A stretch of 64,000 nucleotides of DNA from positions 682,001-746,000 of the forward strand of contig NZ_CP050154.1 in assembly GCF_011617705.1 (NCBI RefSeq), written 5' to 3'. Positions 54,378 through 63,502 of this stretch are shown here, in pieces (positions within the stretch are counted from its first letter, which is position 1; each line of letters opens with the position of its first letter). Source of the stretch: Brevibacterium limosum (GTDB taxonomy: Bacteria; Actinomycetota; Actinomycetes; Actinomycetales; Brevibacteriaceae). A model generated the notes under the pieces. It saw only the letters and a list, made by a program, of their open reading frames with translations. It had not been told where the DNA came from and did not search any database. Both the position numbers and the translations under genes were made by a program.

Positions 54378-54453
54378 TGGCGCCCCCGGGCAGATTCGAA
54401 CTGCCGACACCCGCTTTAGGAGAGCGGTGCTCTATCCCCTGAGCTACGGGGGC
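54378..54453 (-). tRNA. tRNA-Arg (anticodon CCT)
   Basis: On the minus strand the acceptor GCCCCCG pairs with CGGGGGC, the D-arm has AGCTCAGGGGATAGAGC, the anticodon loop CTCCTAA gives CCT in stem CCGCT/AGCGG, and the T-arm has GTTCGAATC. The discriminator is G and CCA is encoded (54378-54380). It reads AGG, a rare codon in GC-rich genomes. Confidence 0.95.
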
Positions 54454-54560: not shown

Positions 54561-57500
54561 GTGTCGGATTCCGTTAGAGACGAACAGTTCAAAGAACTCG
54601 GAGATGTCTTCGCCGAGTGGAAGAAGCAGGCCGCCCATCTGGGCGGTCGCGACACCATGCTTCATTTCCGGGACTCACGTGACGGCAGCATCGACCTCTC
54701 CGGCGCCCACCCCTCCGGCCTGGCACAGCTGCTGGCCGGTCGCGCCACCCGACTCTCCAGCCTCATCCGCGACCACGACATCCTCGCCGATGCGCGCCGA
54801 CGTGCGAAATCCATCCGGTCGAAGGCCGAACAGCTCGACAACGAACGCGGCATCCGCACCGCTCACCTGGCGATCGGATTCGCCTCGTGGACGGAGAAGG
54901 ACGCAAAGTTCAAGTTCAACGCGCCCGTCGTCATGCGCCACATCGCGCTGGTGCCCCGCGGTTCCCGCGTCGAAGACTACGAGATCGTGCTCGACAACGA
55001 GATCGCGATCAACCCGGCACTCGTCCAACACCTGCGTGAGGAATACGACCTCGAGGTGCCCGTCGACGAATGGGTCGACGCGACCGGGGGACCGCACGGC
55101 TTCGACCCGGGCCCGGCCCTCGACCGACTGCGTGATCTGGGCCAGAGTGTGCCCGGTCTGCGGATCAACCACCGCCTGATCATCTCGACGTTCGCGAACA
55201 TCGCGAACCCGTTCTCCACCGACTACCTGCCCACCCAGCACCCCGTTCTGCGCGCGCTGGCCGGCGACGAAGACGTCCGCGCTCAACTCGGCGGACCCTC
55301 CTATGTGCCGCAGCCTGGCGTCCTCCCCGACGAGAAGGTCGCCGCGGCCGAGAAGGCCGAAGCCGAGCAGAACCGTGCCGAAGCCAAGAGAGTCGCCGGC
55401 GCCGTCGCTGGGACGGATGCCGACGGCGCATCGACGTCGGCTGAGTCCGACGGAGATGCACCTGAAGCCGAGACCGGCACCGGGGCCGCGGCCGATGACA
55501 AGGGCGCGACGACGTCGGGCGAGGCCGATCCCGAAGCCGGTGCCGATACCGTTTCCGCGGAAGCGAACGCCGATGCGGATGATGACGAGGACTTCGGTCA
55601 GCCGACCGTGCCGATCACCGACGAACCACTCGATCCGGCGAAGCCGATCGCCGGTGGCGAATCGGCGGGCGACAGAACGGCTGCAGGCGAGACGAGTGCG
55701 CCGGCGGCTGACGCCGCCGCTGCGGACAAGAGCGAACCCACCACCGAGCCCGACACAGACCCTGACGCGCACGCCGATGCAGCGCCCGCTGCCCAGGCCG
55801 ACGGCGACGACGTCGTCCCTGCTGCACTCCAGGAACCGATCACCCCGCTTCCGGACCGGAAGCCGCAGGAAGAGTTCCTCGTCATCGACGTCGACGGTGA
55901 CCAGCAGGCAGTCGTCGACGCAGCCGTCTCCGGCCACTCCGTCGTCGTCGACACCCCACCCGGAACCGGCGCGACCCAGGTCGCCGTCGCCGTGGCCACC
56001 ACTCTGGCCCACACCGGCAAGAGCGTGCTCTTCCTCGCACAGACCTCCGATGCGCTCGACGATTTCTCCACCCGCCTCGGCGAGGTCGGGCTCTCCGATT
56101 TCGCCGTCGACACCCGTGCGGGGTCGGAGGACATCCGCAAGCAGCTCGTCGGTCTCATCGCCTCGGCAGAGAAGTCCGAACGCCCGGACCTCTCCCACCT
56201 GCTGACCGAGCTCAACGAGCAGCGTGCGACCCTGGCCGACCATGTCTCCTCCCTGCACCGCAGGCGCGAGCCGTGGGACGTCTCCGTCTACGAGACCATG
56301 CAGCACCTCGCCGAGCTGACCTCCGGTGACAACTCCCCGCAGACACCGGTGCGCTTCGACGACGACATCCTCGGCGCCAGCGAAGACCGCCGGAATGTGC
56401 TGCGCGGCAAGCTCGGCGAACTCGCGTCACTCGGCGCCTTCACCCTCGACGTCGAAGACACCGTCTGGTTCGGTGCCGACCTCAAATCCGTCGAAGAGGC
56501 CGAAGCCGCACGCACGGTGGCCGAACGCATCGGTCGGATGATCCCCGACCTCATCGCCGCGACCGAACCGGTCCTGCAGAAGGCGAAGCTCAACCCGCGT
56601 CGCAATGTCGACGACTGGGCCCGTGCCATCCGCGTGCTTCTGCGTGTGCGCAAGACGCTGGACAGCTTCGCTCCCGACATCTACGACCATCGCCTCGACG
56701 ACCTCATCGCCGCCACCGGCACCCCCGGATACCGTGCCGAGGTCGGTGTCGAGATGGGCATGATGCAGCGCCGTCGACTGAAGAAGTCGGCCGCTGAGTT
56801 CCTCCGCCCCGGCGCCGAGGTGGCTGACCTCCACGACGCCCTCATCGACGTCCGCGCGCAGCGAGTCATCCTCTCCGACCTCGCCGGCCACGACGGCCGC
56901 CCGCAGATTCCGCGCGGCGTCCTCGAAGCCGATGAGATCCTCCAGAGCGTCGAAGCCGATATGGCCAAGCTCTCCCCGATCCTCGAGACCACCCCCGACG
57001 GCGGGGACCTCGGATCGATGCTCATCGAGGAACTCCAGGCGCGGGCCGAAGCGATGGGCAGCGACTCTGAGAACCTCGCCGAACTGCCCGAACGCTCCCG
57101 CCTGCAGCGGGAACTCGACGGCGAAGGCCTCGGCGACCTCATGGCCGATCTGCGCCGTCGCAAGGTCGACGAAACACTCGTCGGCCCCGAGTTCGACCTC
57201 GCCTATTGGGCCTCCGTGCTGCAGACCATGGCCGGTGAAGACCCCGCGATCGGCCGCCACGACGGTGCCGCCCTCCACCAGGTCGCCGAAGGCTTCCGCG
57301 AGAACGACCGCGCCTTCGTCGCCGCCGGTGCCTCCCGCCTGCGCTATAACCATGCGCAGGCATGGAAGCGCGGAATCGACTCCGACCCCATCGCCGCCGG
57401 AGTCATCAAACAGGAGCTGCTGTCGAAGCACACCTCGACCAAGCGGATCTCCACCCAGGCACCGGACCTGCTCACGACTTTGGCCCCGGTGTGGATGGGC

Positions 57501-59444
57501 AGCCCGTACACGGTGCCCGAACTCTTCTCCGCACTGCCGCTCTTCGACGCGGTCGTCATCGCCGATGCCGGCCGCCTCTCGGTCGCCGACGTCGTCCCCG
57601 GAATCACCCGTGCCCGCCAGGTCATCTCCCTCGGCGACTCCCGGCTGCTCGGACCGCGCCCGTTCTCGATCGCGGTCGATCGCTTCGGCATGGACGATGG
57701 GAATCATCCGCGGTCGGTGCAGGACCGCCTCGGCGAGTTCCTGCCGCGGATGCGGCTGTCGAATTCCTACCGGCTGTCCCCGGTCGGGCTCATCGACCTG
57801 GCCAATCGGCACTTCTACGATTCGACGATCTCGACGCTGCCGACCGCGCACACGGGTGAGGGCAGCGGCCTCGAATTCTCCTATGTCGCCGACGGCCGGG
57901 GGCCCACGGACATCGGCACGGGCCGGGTCGAGAGCCCCGACGCCGAGGTCAAACGAGTCGTCGATCTCGTGCTCAAACACGCGCGGAACCGGTCGCGGGA
58001 ATCTCTGGCCGTCGTCGCGCTCACCCCGCATCACGCTCAGCGGGTGGCCACCGCCATCTCGCGGACGATGAAGGACCTGCCCTATGTGGCGGCGTTCTTC
58101 AACGATTCGACGAAGGAGCCCTTCGTCGTCACCGACGCCGAACGCGTCCAGGGCATGTCACGCGACGCCGTGATCTTCACCCTCGGCTACGGCCGGACCG
58201 TCCACGGCCGCGTCATCCACGACTTCGGCCCGCTGTCCGGAGCCGACGGTCGACGCATCCTCGCGGCCACGATGACGCGAGCCCGGAAGCGGCTGACCCT
58301 GGTCTCGAGCATCGAGGCCGAGGACTTCGACCGCAGCAAGCTCAACGGGGGAGCGGTCATGCTGCCGCGCCTGCTCGAGGAGATCGCGACCGGCGGCGTC
58401 CACCAGCCCGGACCGCACGGCGAGATCTACGATCCGCTGTTCAACGACATCGCCGACCGGTTGCTGCAGCTCGGCGTCGTCGCTCACGAGCATTACAACG
58501 GAATCGACCTGGCCGTGGCGAACTCGACCGAGGACGAACACGGAATGATCATCGCCGTTGCCGGTGACGGTCCCGAATACGCCTCGATGCGCAGCCTGCG
58601 CCAACGCGACCGGGTGCTTCCCGAACAGTTGAACCGCCGTGGGTGGAAGTTCATGCGCGTGTGGTCGACCGACGCGTTCGTCGATCCGCAGACCGAGACC
58701 GAGAAGATCTTCGAAGCCTGGCGTTCCACCGTGGAGACGATGAGCCCGCAGGCCGTGCTCAATGCGGCGCGTGCCGCCTCGGTGGTCGTCGGCCGCACCG
58801 GCAGCCGACCGAAGCTCGTGCCCGGTCTGCCGATGCACAAATACTCCGCCGAAGGCCTCGACGAGATGATCGACTGGATCCAGTCGGATGCGGTCGTGCG
58901 CGGTGACGGTGAGATCAAGGATCTGCTGCGCACCGCGCTGGCGCAGAAGGGCAGCTCGACCCGGGGCGATTCCCAGCTGCAGGCCGCGGTCGACCGCTAC
59001 CGTGAACGCCACGCACAGGCGAAGAAGGTCACCGGCTCCGAGGTGTTCATCCCACGCTCTAACTCGACCGGGCCCGTGGAAGACGACATCCTGCCGACCT
59101 TCGACACCGGTAAGATCCGTGCCGATGAGCTCCGGTCCGCCGGACTCGTCCAGACCGCCAGCAATGACCAGGTCCCCGAGGCGGCCGATGCCTCCGGCGA
59201 CACCGTTTCGGTCGGTGCGGAGTCCGGTCGCGCCCGTGACGCCGGTGCTGGTGATGGTTCGGCTGCCGGCGCAGCGGCGTCGGACGACGTCGAAGCCGCC
59301 GGAGCAGCTGGGGCGGAGTCCGAGGACTCGGGTTCGGCCGACGCGGACTCGGCCGGGGCGGAGTCAGCCGAGACGAACTCGGCCGGGACAGAGTCAGATG
59401 GGGCCGCCTCGGCGAAGTCGGGGTCGAAGAACGACGATGCCTGA
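54561..59444 (+). CDS. Giant SF1-helicase/nuclease-like protein with degenerate catalytic motifs
   Basis: A 1627-residue protein. Residues 1-250 form an N-terminal domain (FKELGDVFAEWKKQAAHLGG..., DUF4011-like), 260-440 an acidic Ala/Asp/Glu/Thr linker, 440-1280 an SF1 helicase-like core, 1290-1410 a domain resembling the MTES_1575 REase fold, and the last 110 residues an acidic Ala/Ser/Gly tail. The P-loop reads PPGTGATQ (A471 where Lys is expected), the Walker B region VVIADAGRL (D1002-A1003 instead of Asp-Glu), and the nuclease-like site keeps D1316 (GIDLAV) but has A1334 in IAVAGDG where IExDG is usual. Motif VI TRAR (1239-1242) persists. The start is GTG 54561. It looks like a conserved-architecture pseudoenzyme; function unknown. 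Confidence 0.8.
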   Translation: MSDSVRDEQFKELGDVFAEWKKQAAHLGGRDTMLHFRDSRDGSIDLSGAHPSGLAQLLAGRATRLSSLIRDHDILADARRRAKSIRSKAEQLDNERGIRTAHLAIGFASWTEKDAKFKFNAPVVMRHIALVPRGSRVEDYEIVLDNEIAINPALVQHLREEYDLEVPVDEWVDATGGPHGFDPGPALDRLRDLGQSVPGLRINHRLIISTFANIANPFSTDYLPTQHPVLRALAGDEDVRAQLGGPSYVPQPGVLPDEKVAAAEKAEAEQNRAEAKRVAGAVAGTDADGASTSAESDGDAPEAETGTGAAADDKGATTSGEADPEAGADTVSAEANADADDDEDFGQPTVPITDEPLDPAKPIAGGESAGDRTAAGETSAPAADAAAADKSEPTTEPDTDPDAHADAAPAAQADGDDVVPAALQEPITPLPDRKPQEEFLVIDVDGDQQAVVDAAVSGHSVVVDTPPGTGATQVAVAVATTLAHTGKSVLFLAQTSDALDDFSTRLGEVGLSDFAVDTRAGSEDIRKQLVGLIASAEKSERPDLSHLLTELNEQRATLADHVSSLHRRREPWDVSVYETMQHLAELTSGDNSPQTPVRFDDDILGASEDRRNVLRGKLGELASLGAFTLDVEDTVWFGADLKSVEEAEAARTVAERIGRMIPDLIAATEPVLQKAKLNPRRNVDDWARAIRVLLRVRKTLDSFAPDIYDHRLDDLIAATGTPGYRAEVGVEMGMMQRRRLKKSAAEFLRPGAEVADLHDALIDVRAQRVILSDLAGHDGRPQIPRGVLEADEILQSVEADMAKLSPILETTPDGGDLGSMLIEELQARAEAMGSDSENLAELPERSRLQRELDGEGLGDLMADLRRRKVDETLVGPEFDLAYWASVLQTMAGEDPAIGRHDGAALHQVAEGFRENDRAFVAAGASRLRYNHAQAWKRGIDSDPIAAGVIKQELLSKHTSTKRISTQAPDLLTTLAPVWMGSPYTVPELFSALPLFDAVVIADAGRLSVADVVPGITRARQVISLGDSRLLGPRPFSIAVDRFGMDDGNHPRSVQDRLGEFLPRMRLSNSYRLSPVGLIDLANRHFYDSTISTLPTAHTGEGSGLEFSYVADGRGPTDIGTGRVESPDAEVKRVVDLVLKHARNRSRESLAVVALTPHHAQRVATAISRTMKDLPYVAAFFNDSTKEPFVVTDAERVQGMSRDAVIFTLGYGRTVHGRVIHDFGPLSGADGRRILAATMTRARKRLTLVSSIEAEDFDRSKLNGGAVMLPRLLEEIATGGVHQPGPHGEIYDPLFNDIADRLLQLGVVAHEHYNGIDLAVANSTEDEHGMIIAVAGDGPEYASMRSLRQRDRVLPEQLNRRGWKFMRVWSTDAFVDPQTETEKIFEAWRSTVETMSPQAVLNAARAASVVVGRTGSRPKLVPGLPMHKYSAEGLDEMIDWIQSDAVVRGDGEIKDLLRTALAQKGSSTRGDSQLQAAVDRYRERHAQAKKVTGSEVFIPRSNSTGPVEDDILPTFDTGKIRADELRSAGLVQTASNDQVPEAADASGDTVSVGAESGRARDAGAGDGSAAGAAASDDVEAAGAAGAESEDSGSADADSAGAESAETNSAGTESDGAASAKSGSKNDDA

Positions 59445-59742
59445 TCGGCTCACCGGCGCTGAGGATGCTGATCGCGACCGCGATCGAGTCGATCCCAGCG
59501 TGGGCGAGGTCGGCAGTGATCCTGAGGGTGCGGCGCACATCGGCGATGGTGCCGAGACCAGCACTGATCCTGAGGGTGCAGGACACATCGAGAACGATGC
59601 TGAGTCCGATGAGTCTCGGCAGGCCCGGATCGAAGCGGCGAAGCGCCGATACCGCGCCACTCTGCGCAACGAAGCCGACACCGGTGGCGGCGGCTTCAGC
59701 GAGGACTACTACCGTTCGCAGAAGCCTCCGCACTGGTCATAG
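59437..59742 (+). CDS. Small acidic protein coupled to the giant helicase-like gene
   Basis: A 101-residue protein whose ATG lies 8 bp inside the end of the previous gene, so translation is coupled. The first 55 residues are acidic with two DPEGAxHIxxxAE repeats; the rest is basic helical (SRQARIEAAKRRYRATLRN) and ends GGFSEDYYRSQKPPHWS, which has the look of a conserved binding peptide. Family not recognised. The coupling suggests a stoichiometric partner of the large protein. Confidence 0.7.
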   Translation: MPDRLTGAEDADRDRDRVDPSVGEVGSDPEGAAHIGDGAETSTDPEGAGHIENDAESDESRQARIEAAKRRYRATLRNEADTGGGGFSEDYYRSQKPPHWS

Positions 59743-59806
59743 CCTTCGAACTGGTCTTGGTAGCCGCCCGACCGGGTCCTAGCGTTCGACGGGTTTCAGG
59801 CATGAG

Positions 59807-59856: not shown

Positions 59857-60318
59857 TCAGTGCCGCGGAGGCTGGTTCGGATCGACCGGCCCGTCGGTAG
59901 CAGGACCCTCGGCGGGACCGGCAGGCGAGGCAACCTGGTTGCGCAGGATCTCGCGGATGTCGCCGAGCAGATCCTCGGTGGTCGGAGGGACTTCTTCCTC
60001 GGGAGCTCCGCGCTTGCGCAGCTCGTTGAGCTTGTTCATCGGGACGATGATGATGAAGTAGACGATGGCGGCCACGATGAGGAAGTTGATGGCCGCAGTG
60101 ATGACCGCACCGATATCAAGGGTGGCCTCCGGCACGCCTTCCTTGAGCGGGATGGAAAGAGCCGGGCCCTCGGCGCCGCCGACGGCGGCGATGAGCGGGT
60201 TGATGATCTTGTCAGAGAATGCGGTGACGATGGCGGTGAATGCGCCGCCGATGATGACCGCAGTTGCGAGTTCGACGACATTCCCCTGGAGAATGAAGTC
60301 TCTGAATCCCTTCAGCAT
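59857..60318 (-). CDS. mscL: Large-conductance mechanosensitive channel
   Basis: A 153-residue homopentameric channel that opens under membrane tension to release solutes. N-terminal MLKGFRDFILQGNVVELATA and the first span AVIIGGAFTAIVTAFSDKI are typical, the second span is FLIVAAIVYFIIIVPMNKL, followed by the cytoplasmic helix and a Pro/Gly-rich tail longer than usual. The 262-bp spacer upstream (60319-60580) shows no gene. Confidence 0.97.
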   Translation of the reverse strand: MLKGFRDFILQGNVVELATAVIIGGAFTAIVTAFSDKIINPLIAAVGGAEGPALSIPLKEGVPEATLDIGAVITAAINFLIVAAIVYFIIIVPMNKLNELRKRGAPEEEVPPTTEDLLGDIREILRNQVASPAGPAEGPATDGPVDPNQPPRH

Positions 60319-60580: not shown

Positions 60581-61210
60581 TCAGCGAGGAAGAATGGCAA
60601 AGCTGATGGGAAGCCCGGCGAACTCGGCGACGCGGCCGGCATCCTCGGCGGAGAGGATCACGGATACAAGTTGGCCTGACTCCGCGGCAATTCCTTCGGG
60701 TTTGTCGACAAGGCGAGCGATCGTCACCTTTTCGACGACGACTTCCGATCCGCCGTCGGGAAGTGACGAGAAGAGACGGATCTTCTGTCCCGGTTGGAGC
60801 AACGCCGTCGAGGCGTCATCGGCCAGACGGATCGGCATGAGCAGGTCACGGCTGCCCTTCGGCAGAGCCTGCTGATCGAGCACGACCGCCGAGGTCAGCG
60901 GTGATCCCTTCGACAACCCCGCCGAGGTGGCCCGACCCCTCACCTCTTCAACGGAGGTGAATGCCTTGTCGGGGACCAGGTCGGTAGGAAACTGAGTGAG
61001 GGTGAGGTGCTGAGCTCGGAGTTCTGTACCAGGAGCCAGGTCCGATTTCGCGACGACGATCGCCGTACCCGCGCTGGTCGGGGTGAGCATCCAAACGACC
61101 AGAGCACAGGCACACGCAAGGCAGACGGCGGCGAGAAGGCGCTGAGGTCGGATGCGAGACGGCCGTGCCCAGCCCGAAGACGAGGTGCGGATGCGGTGGA
61201 AGATGCCCAT
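60581..61210 (-). CDS. SAF-domain membrane protein (CpaB/RcpC-like)
   Basis: A 209-residue protein with a basic N-terminus, one span (about residues 25-45) and an extracellular SAF domain (AIVVAKSDLAPGTELRAQHL, ATSAGLSKGSPLTSAVV) as in Flp pilus assembly protein CpaB. No other pilus genes are present, so a pilus role is not supported here; related SAF proteins occur next to FmdB genes in actinobacteria. ATG 61210 is chosen over 61231. Confidence 0.8.
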   Translation of the reverse strand: MGIFHRIRTSSSGWARPSRIRPQRLLAAVCLACACALVVWMLTPTSAGTAIVVAKSDLAPGTELRAQHLTLTQFPTDLVPDKAFTSVEEVRGRATSAGLSKGSPLTSAVVLDQQALPKGSRDLLMPIRLADDASTALLQPGQKIRLFSSLPDGGSEVVVEKVTIARLVDKPEGIAAESGQLVSVILSAEDAGRVAEFAGLPISFAILPR

Positions 61211-61393
61211 GCACCGAGCCTGCGACGGCATTTGGTGAGCGGCAAGGACGCGGAAGTCGCCTGTGGACAGTTCGTGCTGTCCACAGGCGATCGGCGTTTG
61301 AGTGATGCGGAGGTCAGCTTGCGGCTGGAGCCGGTCGGGTGGCGGTCGGGGTGGGTCAGCTCGCGGCCCGAGTCGGCCAGCTCGGTGCTGGGG

Positions 61394-61840: not shown

Positions 61841-62554
61841 TCAGGCCGTGAAGATGTGAGTTCCGTCTTCGGTGACGGCCGCTGGAATGCGCAGATCCCA
61901 GTCCTCGGCGACGAGGCCCGTCAGATCGAGCTCCTCGGCGAAGCACACTCCGAGGACACGAGGCCCCGAACCAAGAGACGCCGAACCAAGAGGCGCCGCC
62001 CCGTGAGGGCCGAAGGTCCTGTCGTAGAATCCACCGCCGTTGCCCAACCGGGCGCCATCGGCACCGAAGCCCAGGGCGGGGACGAGGATGAGGTCGAGAC
62101 CGACCGCGGGGGAGAGCAGCTGAGCGGCGGAGAGCAGCGTGTGATCCCGGGCCGGTTCGCGGATTCCCCATCTGCCCCACGGCTTCAGGCGGGCCATCGA
62201 ACCGGTGACCTGGCCGAACATCAAGGGCTCGCCGACCGTCGTGACGACCGGCAGATAGACGGTGCCGCCTGCTGCGAGAAACCGGTCGAGCGCCGGGTCG
62301 AGGTCCGGCTCTCCGGGCAGAGCCGCATAAGCAAGGAGGGAGCGGACCGGCGCTTCCCGGATGACACTCCACGCGGCAGCGGCCACGGCGTCCGCAGGTG
62401 AGGTTGAAGTCGGGGTCGCGTCGGCCGGGGTGACCTGCGGCGATGTCGTCGCCACGGACGACGATGAGGCGGGAGACGCCTCGGCGAGGGAGCGGTCGGC
62501 ACGAGCGGCGCGGATGCGGGACCTCAGCTGCGCCTTCGAAGTTTCTGGTTCCAC
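61841..62554 (-). CDS. 5-formyltetrahydrofolate cyclo-ligase
   Basis: A 237-residue enzyme that converts 5-formyl-THF to 5,10-methenyl-THF with ATP. N-terminal KAQLRSRIRAARADR, substrate segment EPDLDPALDRFLAAGG, and the ATP motif LGNGGGFYDR are present. A Ser/Thr/Ala/Pro-rich insertion of about 25 residues (near 22-48) follows the first helix. GTG 62554 is a likely start; no ribosome-binding site is visible, and it is 45 bp from divergent galU, so a leaderless message is possible. Confidence 0.9.
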   Translation of the reverse strand: MEPETSKAQLRSRIRAARADRSLAEASPASSSSVATTSPQVTPADATPTSTSPADAVAAAAWSVIREAPVRSLLAYAALPGEPDLDPALDRFLAAGGTVYLPVVTTVGEPLMFGQVTGSMARLKPWGRWGIREPARDHTLLSAAQLLSPAVGLDLILVPALGFGADGARLGNGGGFYDRTFGPHGAAPLGSASLGSGPRVLGVCFAEELDLTGLVAEDWDLRIPAAVTEDGTHIFTA

Positions 62555-62599
62555 GCATTTCAGACTAACCGGGGTCGGCGGATTAGTTAAGATGACTTC

Positions 62600-63502
62600 A
62601 TGAGTGATGAAGCGCAGCGCACCGTTCGCAAGGCCGTGATCCCCGTCGCCGGTCTCGGAACTCGGTTCCTCCCCGCCACGAAAGCCACCCCCAAAGAGAT
62701 GCTGCCCGTCGTCGACAAGCCGGCGATCCAGTACGTCATCGAGGAAGCCGTCGACGCCGGTCTGCAGGACGTTCTCATGATCACCGGCCGGAACAAGCGG
62801 CCGCTGGAGGATCACTTCGACCGGGTCGACGGGCTCGAGGCGGCGCTCGCGCAGAAGGGCGACGACAAGAAGCTCGCCGCTGTGCGCCATCCGTCGGAAC
62901 TCGCTGATATCCACTATGTGCGCCAGGGAGATCCGAAGGGTCTCGGTCACGCCGTGCTCAAGGGGCGTCAGCATGTGGGCAATGAGCCGTTCGCGGTGCT
63001 TCTCGGCGATGACCTCATCGACGAGCGCAGCCCGATCCTGCCGAAGATGATCGAGGTCGCAGAGAAGACCGGCGGCAGCGTCGTCGCACTCATGGAGGTC
63101 CCGCCGGAGGCGATCCACCTCTACGGCTGCGCGGCCGTCGAGACCACCTCCGATGATGAGGTCGTCAGGGTCACCGATCTCGTCGAGAAACCTGCCACCG
63201 AGGATGCTCCCTCGAACCTCGCCATCATCGGCCGCTACGTGCTGGCTCCGGAGATCTTCGACGTCCTCGAGACCACGAAGCCGGGACGCGGCAACGAAAT
63301 CCAGCTCACCGATGCCCTTCAGGAGCTCGCCGGGGATGACGACGGCCACGGCGTCTACGGTGTCGTGTTCAAGGGTGCGCGCTACGACACGGGTGACAAG
63401 CTCGACTACCTCAAGGCGGTTGTGCAGATCGCCTGCGACCGTGACGACCTCGGCGACGATCTCAAGGCGTGGCTGCGCGACTTCGTGCCGACGCTGGACT
63501 GA
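62600..63502 (+). CDS. galU: UTP-glucose-1-phosphate uridylyltransferase
   Basis: A 300-residue nucleotidyltransferase producing UDP-glucose for wall and capsule glycans. Motifs: VAGLGTRFLPATKATPKEML (nucleotide loop), VDKPAIQYVIEEAV, GLGHAVLKGR, LLGDDLIDE (metal Asp pair), and GRGNEIQLTDALQ. It is the plus-strand partner of the cyclo-ligase gene, as in mycobacteria (Rv0992c/Rv0993). Confidence 0.97.
   Translation: MSDEAQRTVRKAVIPVAGLGTRFLPATKATPKEMLPVVDKPAIQYVIEEAVDAGLQDVLMITGRNKRPLEDHFDRVDGLEAALAQKGDDKKLAAVRHPSELADIHYVRQGDPKGLGHAVLKGRQHVGNEPFAVLLGDDLIDERSPILPKMIEVAEKTGGSVVALMEVPPEAIHLYGCAAVETTSDDEVVRVTDLVEKPATEDAPSNLAIIGRYVLAPEIFDVLETTKPGRGNEIQLTDALQELAGDDDGHGVYGVVFKGARYDTGDKLDYLKAVVQIACDRDDLGDDLKAWLRDFVPTLD

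Follow-up and report, generated by a model that had tools for sequence, protein, structure and literature searches.

A giant helicase-nuclease-like gene of Brevibacterium limosum probably encodes a vertically inherited core pseudohelicase, descended from an anti-phage-type enzyme and serving as a scaffold that does not hydrolyse ATP. Because four motor positions and the nuclease glutamate are gone, we consider the usual kind of enzyme unlikely; the conserved sequence, locus, and associated C-terminal tail suggest a scaffold for DNA or protein binding, with no hydrolysis involved. The gene lies in a 64,000-nucleotide stretch (the window) of a genome represented by one 4.25-Mb contig. Its locus offers a natural series from live through motor-dead to motor-and-nuclease-dead proteins, all in long open frames, which makes a non-catalytic role of defence-type proteins testable. 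It also carries a warning that defence helicase labels drawn from profile similarity can hide core pseudoenzymes, and it draws attention to a small protein of actinobacteria whose end is PPH(W/H) and which has no Pfam model.

Domain layout and motif states

The large frame (54561 to 59444, + strand) starts with GTG and is open throughout its 1,627 codons (1,627 aa). A DUF4011 domain (residues 27 to 158; 54639 to 55034, + strand; Pfam PF13195, 44.1 bits, cut-off 22.2) and an MTES_1575 (Vsr-like) nuclease domain (residues 1300 to 1386; 58458 to 58718, + strand; Pfam PF18741, 53 bits, cut-off 38.2) both score above their Pfam cut-offs and flank an SF1 core, which makes the protein a member of the DUF4011/MTES_1575 family. 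SF1 helicase Pfam models matched it below cut-off only (best four, 18.5 to 19.7 bits), and a search of solved structures with the large protein returned weak UPF1/NAM7-type matches only (best E value, 0.011). The nearest protein, at 99% identity, belongs to Brevibacterium sp. CFH 10365. No viral relatives turned up in one scan of viral contigs, for which P0179 was the query.

We read the motifs in alignment against the live reference motifs PPGTGKSQT, FDVVVFDEAS, GDERQLPP, and AVESDG. The remnant Walker A motif is PPGTGATQ (residues 466 to 473; 55956 to 55979, + strand; residues 462 to 475 are VVDTPPGTGATQVA), with A471 at the lysine position, as an earlier reading of this DNA from sequence only had reported. 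ADAG likewise stands at residues 1001 to 1004 (57561 to 57572, + strand), where DEAS is expected and where the sequence-only reading had noted the absence of DEAS or DEAG. The alanine it singled out, A1003, is the ordinary alanine of DEAS; the real Walker B changes are D1001A and E1002D. Motif III is GDSRLLGP (residues 1025 to 1032; 57633 to 57656, + strand), with L1029 at the glutamine position, and so the protein lacks every residue by which we recognize an active SF1 helicase (Walker A Lys, Walker B Asp-Glu, and motif III Gln). The nuclease signature from I1331 to G1337 is IAVAGDG, with A1334 at the glutamate position as previously claimed; of the Asp and Glu of ID..VExDG that mark an active MTES_1575 nuclease, D1316 is present and the glutamate is replaced. 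That this glutamate is catalytic is probable from the alignment and the relationship to Vsr. Motif VI, TRAR (residues 1239 to 1242; 58275 to 58286, + strand), is retained, and the earlier statement that it persists over 1,627 intact codons is correct. The wider claim that every catalytic residue is gone holds for the lysine, the Asp-Glu pair, the glutamine, and the nuclease glutamate, but not for D1316, D1336, T472, and the arginines of motifs IV and VI, all of which remain. The basic residues of motif Ia are also gone (AEKRAAID in live relatives, AQTSDALD in the window protein); the usual kind of single-stranded DNA (ssDNA) binding may have gone with them, which would weaken a simple ssDNA-clamp reading.

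These residue changes are not chance, because they are near-fixed among the 121 closest proteins (P0001 to P0121). Position 471 is Ala in 120 of them (gap, 1), and positions 1001, 1002, and 1029 are Ala, Asp, and Leu, respectively, in all 121. Position 1334 is Ala in 105, Ser in 9, Glu in 6, and a gap in 1, so that fixation across the clade, raised as a question by the sequence-only reading, applies to A471 and in part to A1334. An intact Walker lysine elsewhere in the fold, which that reading had named as a finding that would overturn it, was sought and rejected: no shifted lysine shared by the group was seen. The Microbacteriaceae form has a lysine before the loop (VVKTLPGTGG), where Brevibacterium has an aspartate.

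Chromosomal locus and selection

The gene occupies a housekeeping neighbourhood that is kept across families of Actinomycetes and is no defence island. Upstream lies tRNA-Arg(CCT) (54378 to 54453, − strand), also found in 27 of 60 stretches fetched from genomes of the order. Downstream, all on the − strand, are mscL (59857 to 60318; an MscL homologue is present in 41 of the 60), a gene for a SAF-domain protein (60581 to 61231), and an open reading frame (61841 to 63349) whose residues 321 to 494 match the Pfam model of 5-formyltetrahydrofolate (5-FTHF) cyclo-ligase. MscL, SAF, or 5-FTHF ligase was present in 55 of the 60 stretches, and MscL accompanies 11 of 13 relatives drawn from the class at large. 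Among 35 loci there is no close conserved upstream partner gene; the recurrent upstream families of open reading frames of at least 120 aa lie some 5 to 6 kb off, at 6 of the 35 loci each. The gene is present in all 57 Brevibacterium genomes searched, and in each the matched stretch is free of stops. Two of these genomes (G332:C1:415001-416248 and G335:C16:70932-72161) also contain a second, distant relative (28% identity).

Purifying selection on the dead domains was evident from 13 comparisons inside the nuclease-dead clade (dN/dS by the Nei-Gojobori method, own script). Ratios were 0.048 to 0.161 for the core (residues 431 to 1400), 0.050 to 0.178 for the first motor half, 0.020 to 0.136 for the second, and 0.040 to 0.169 for the nuclease domain. 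The fast-evolving acidic low-complexity linker (residues 231 to 430; 55251 to 55850, + strand) gave 0.22 to 0.48 and the tail 0.16 to 0.32. As a baseline, neighbouring genes gave 0.077 to 0.188 (MscL) and 0.046 to 0.145 (Usp) in eight relatives and 0.046 to 0.118 (DtxR) in seven; the core of the large protein gave 0.048 to 0.152 in the same eight. The dead domains are constrained like ordinary working genes, and the sequence-only reading, which had proposed this check and argued for selection on a non-enzymatic role over decay, is upheld by both the ratios and the stop-free genomes; homologues that are mostly frameshifted, its own sign of decay, were not what the 57 genomes contained. In five more distant Brevibacteriaceae, the core ratio was 0.39 to 0.52 at dS of 0.69 to 1.01, where saturation makes it unsafe. 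The 5-FTHF frame was rejected as a baseline: it combined low dS with high dN (ratio, 0.52 to 2.41), and most of it lies outside the Pfam match.

Live and dead orthologues across Actinomycetes

Motor loss is not private to Brevibacterium; Micrococcaceae, Microbacteriaceae, and other families share it, and live orthologues occupy the same locus. We aligned 74 proteins (the window protein plus P0116 to P0188), among them proteins of Brevibacterium, Saxibacter, Arthrobacter, Psychromicrobium, and Glaciihabitans, and none of the 72 that hold the position has the Walker lysine. At the nuclease position, 66 of the aligned proteins have Glu, 6 have Asp, and 1 has Asn; the single Ala is that of the window protein.

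The 60 stretches of the order were chosen among the matches listed and so do not constitute a random sample; all but L088 encode an orthologue, giving 59. Nine of the 59 keep the Walker lysine, and all nine also keep the Asp-Glu pair; eight have the motif III glutamine, and the ninth (L064) has Leu there. Live orthologues include those of Angustibacter sp. Root456 (L070, P0189) and Phycicoccus sp. Soil802 (L068, P0280), and among 120 matches listed for a live query, PPGTGK(S/T) was present in 113, DEAS in 117, and a VExDG-type end in 117. The Asp-Glu pair is found in none of the 50 orthologues without the lysine, of which 2 have the Glu alone, 12 the Asp alone at 1001, and 3 the motif III glutamine. 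The nuclease position is Glu in eight and Asp in one of the lysine-keeping orthologues; in the lysine-less ones it is Glu in 29, Asp in 4, and another residue in 17. Position 1336 is Asp in all 59.

A class-wide draw of 20 further stretches yielded 13 with a clear relative, 3 with a weak one, and 4 with none; 1 of the 13 clear relatives is live (L097) and 12 lack the lysine. Family f35, of another order, is lysine-less, with PG(T/S)GRTQ and EDAG, EDAA, or DDAA. The live L097 (family f39, also of another order) has no MscL, SAF, or 5-FTHF match in its stretch, a hint of a mobile live form. Eight members of families f8, f13, and f3 (L072 to L075, L077, L078, L079, and L089) have lost the P-loop outline and the nuclease glutamate, yet their frames are long and open and their stretches also hold MscL; no motor feature would then be universally needed. 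Four lysine-less members (L062, L063, L065, and L105) of the mostly live family f17 provide a place to study motor loss. In 23 PDC-S37-type relatives (L002 to L021, L024, L029, and L030), read by eye, the nuclease glutamate is Leu or Met in 19. In these 19 both the P-loop and DEAS are intact, so that the losses run the opposite way; for the remaining four, the fetched stretch did not include the P-loop part.

With motif columns removed, quick tree searches on 67 and on 40 rows placed dead groups at more than one point, namely as f35, as a subgroup within the live family f17, and as the large clade to which Brevibacterium belongs. Parsimony required at least 4 (67 rows) or 3 (40 rows) changes of the lysine and at least 8 (67 rows) of the nuclease state (Glu or Asp versus other). 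A tree with a single dead clade was not rejected (40 rows; AU test P = 0.097). At least one motor loss took place, and several are likely, although the latter is not proven. Within Brevibacterium, loss of the nuclease glutamate is confined to the linens/casei clade, and it has also occurred in some other lineages. Because the linens/casei clade is nested inside the motor-dead group, its nuclease loss is apparently the later one. Motor and nuclease losses, which the sequence-only reading had treated as one pattern, are both real, but they are two separate events.

A small acidic protein and its C-terminal module

The coupled small acidic protein previously noted is indeed present: it has 101 aa (59437 to 59742, + strand; 24 D/E and 13 K/R), and its ATG overlaps the stop of the large gene (59442 to 59444) by 8 bases. 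It has no Pfam match. Its C-terminal module, which ends in SEDYYRSQKPPHWS, is conserved and is fused to the large protein in some relatives. Another frame (59465 to 59782), considered as a partner, has 18 K/R versus 3 D/E, looks spurious, and was rejected. By whole-protein search, the small protein was found in 44 of 57 Brevibacterium genomes, and 3 of the 13 misses (G006, G086, and G170) show the tail by motif. Its dN/dS was 0.16 to 0.43 (8 comparisons), less constrained than the large core.

We scanned for the tail as (R/K/V/E)PPH(W/Y/F/H) at most 12 residues from a stop, on the same strand and at most 1 kb downstream. The scan was positive at 51 of 72 loci, compared with 40 of 1,500 random windows of the same loci (true sites included). 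At most of the 51 loci, the end is no more than about 350 bases from the large gene; at six f35 loci the distance is 0.7 to 0.94 kb. Seven of the remaining 21 loci (L036, L037, L072, L078, L079, L082, and L093) have a looser or more distant copy, and at 11 loci (L042 to L048, L068, L077, L085, and L090) the module is the C-terminus of the large protein itself. The recurrent link thus extends to 69 of 72 loci, with the module either downstream or fused; L097, L098, and L109 have none. That the module is fused in several families speaks for a function shared with the large protein.

The small gene also has an existence of its own at the mscL locus. A tail model matched 111 of 148 class genomes (E value up to 0.05), and PDC-S37 matched 85 (E value up to 0.001); MscL was present in 10 of 16 stretches picked for having no adjoining large gene, which included other orders. 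The adjacency of the small and large genes may therefore be in part ancestral gene order. The small proteins form an actinobacterial family that Pfam does not model; their C-terminus reads (T/S)xDDxDxGWGE...PPH(W/H), and their genes are often neighbours of mscL.

Alternative explanations

Retention as an anti-phage effector or sensor, in which binding of phage DNA would be turned into a conformational signal without ATP hydrolysis, strikes us as rather unlikely. It would account for the best profile relatives being defence proteins: the PADLOC phage-defence candidate PDC-S37 (440.4 bits over three stretches, the best at 696 to 1354 of 1,550; the PADLOC table gives no cut-off), ProA (NF058533, 406.1 bits), and Hhe (NF042953, 248.4 bits). 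A DUF4011 gene is, moreover, described as a core flank of a defence hotspot in every Pseudomonas aeruginosa isolate in the excerpted text of PMC10250203. The ProA and Hhe scores, however, are far below the curated NCBI cut-offs of 1,500 and 2,000, and presence in all 57 genomes of the genus searched, at a housekeeping locus, is unlike the patchy occurrence of defence genes. Less likely again is activity through non-canonical residues, with ATP held by the GTGxTQ loop and D1002 and cleavage by D1316/D1336. Of the 50 dead orthologues, 37 have Thr and 1 has Ser at position 472; position 1336 is Asp in all 59 orthologues fetched; and the nuclease glutamate, being Leu or Met in 19 of the 23 PDC-S37-type relatives read, may be dispensable. 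Yet in the window's clade the four motor positions were lost together, and the lysine has been replaced by 13 different residues among the dead orthologues, unlike what one alternative chemistry would leave.

A role as regulator or decoy, directed at a live paralogue that the cell also encodes, would fit genomes such as G005 and G024, which have PDC-S37-type genes with a live-looking motor beside the core gene. We regard it as very improbable here, given that in the window's own genome the PDC-S37 profile matches only the large gene (three matches inside it; three of five first-look candidates scored) and that only 2 of 57 Brevibacterium genomes have a second relative. Simple decay of a defence gene we find scarcely credible: the lost catalytic residues and the faster linker and tail (dN/dS, 0.16 to 0.48) are what it would predict, but the absence of stops in the matched stretch of all 57 genomes and neighbour-like ratios of 0.02 to 0.18 in the dead domains contradict it.

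The preferred reading, a core pseudohelicase serving as a scaffold, would run as follows. The gene would have been inherited vertically at its core locus as part of the DUF4011–SF1 helicase–MTES_1575 nuclease family, to which the anti-phage proteins ProA and Hhe and the candidate PDC-S37 also belong. An ancestor of the lineage would have lost ATP hydrolysis with the Walker A Lys, the Walker B Asp-Glu, and the motif III Gln, and yet have kept its locus, its long open frame, and motif VI; the linens/casei clade of Brevibacterium would then have lost the nuclease glutamate. By analogy with known pseudohelicases, the protein may function without catalysis as a scaffold binding nucleic acid or protein, in the manner of the inactivated AddB/RecC helicase domains that scan DNA, and the PPHW-type module may be a tail by which it docks onto some other component of the cell. 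More tentatively, and with doubt outweighing confidence, an anti-phage-type helicase-nuclease could have been domesticated stepwise at one Actinomycetes locus into a purely structural core protein, losing the motor first and the nuclease afterwards in some lineages, and linked to a conserved cellular target by its detachable tail, whether fused or made as a separate small protein: a RecC-like scaffold that arose independently from the Hhe/ProA branch.

Comparison with known systems

The closest comparison is with the live core-locus orthologues, such as P0189 (L070) and P0280 (L068), which share the architecture and the mscL neighbourhood and differ in that GK(S/T), DEAS, GDxxQL, and VExDG are intact in them. 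The live orthologues L066 to L071, L090, and L091 matched the window protein at 507 to 765 bits, and the PDC-S37 profile scored 837 bits with P0189 and 830 bits with P0280. PDC-S37, ProA, and Hhe have the SF1 core and MTES_1575 region in common with the window protein, which differs in being shorter than the ProA and Hhe models, motor-dead, and fixed at a core locus. The MTES_1575 nuclease domain itself is presented, in the portion of PMC3710099 that treats it, as Vsr-like and as occurring in giant proteins believed to recognize invading DNA without modification genes.

Helicases without catalysis have precedents. The inactivated SF1 helicase domains of AddB and RecC recognize Chi as scanners, according to the excerpt of PMC4824097, and so exemplify an SF1 fold that serves as a DNA scanner without catalytic motifs; they belong to a UvrD-like SF1 branch and act in complex with live motors, and we liken them to the window protein by analogy, claiming no sequence relation. 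The excerpt of PMC7644769 treats only the helicase-like domain of RecC and gave no support for an inactive nuclease fold there. Deinococcus radiodurans PriA is described as a pseudohelicase that has lost its ATPase and kept DNA and protein binding (PMC4504706, in part), and it is likewise a core helicase gene; it differs in being another helicase with a known pathway, and a nuclease domain is unmentioned in that part of the source. In the literature searched, part of it as excerpts, we found no published description of a core-locus motor-dead branch with a detachable tail. The helicase-nuclease family itself is already known; the apparently new part is its constrained, core-locus, motor-dead branch, kept across several families, with a detachable tail.
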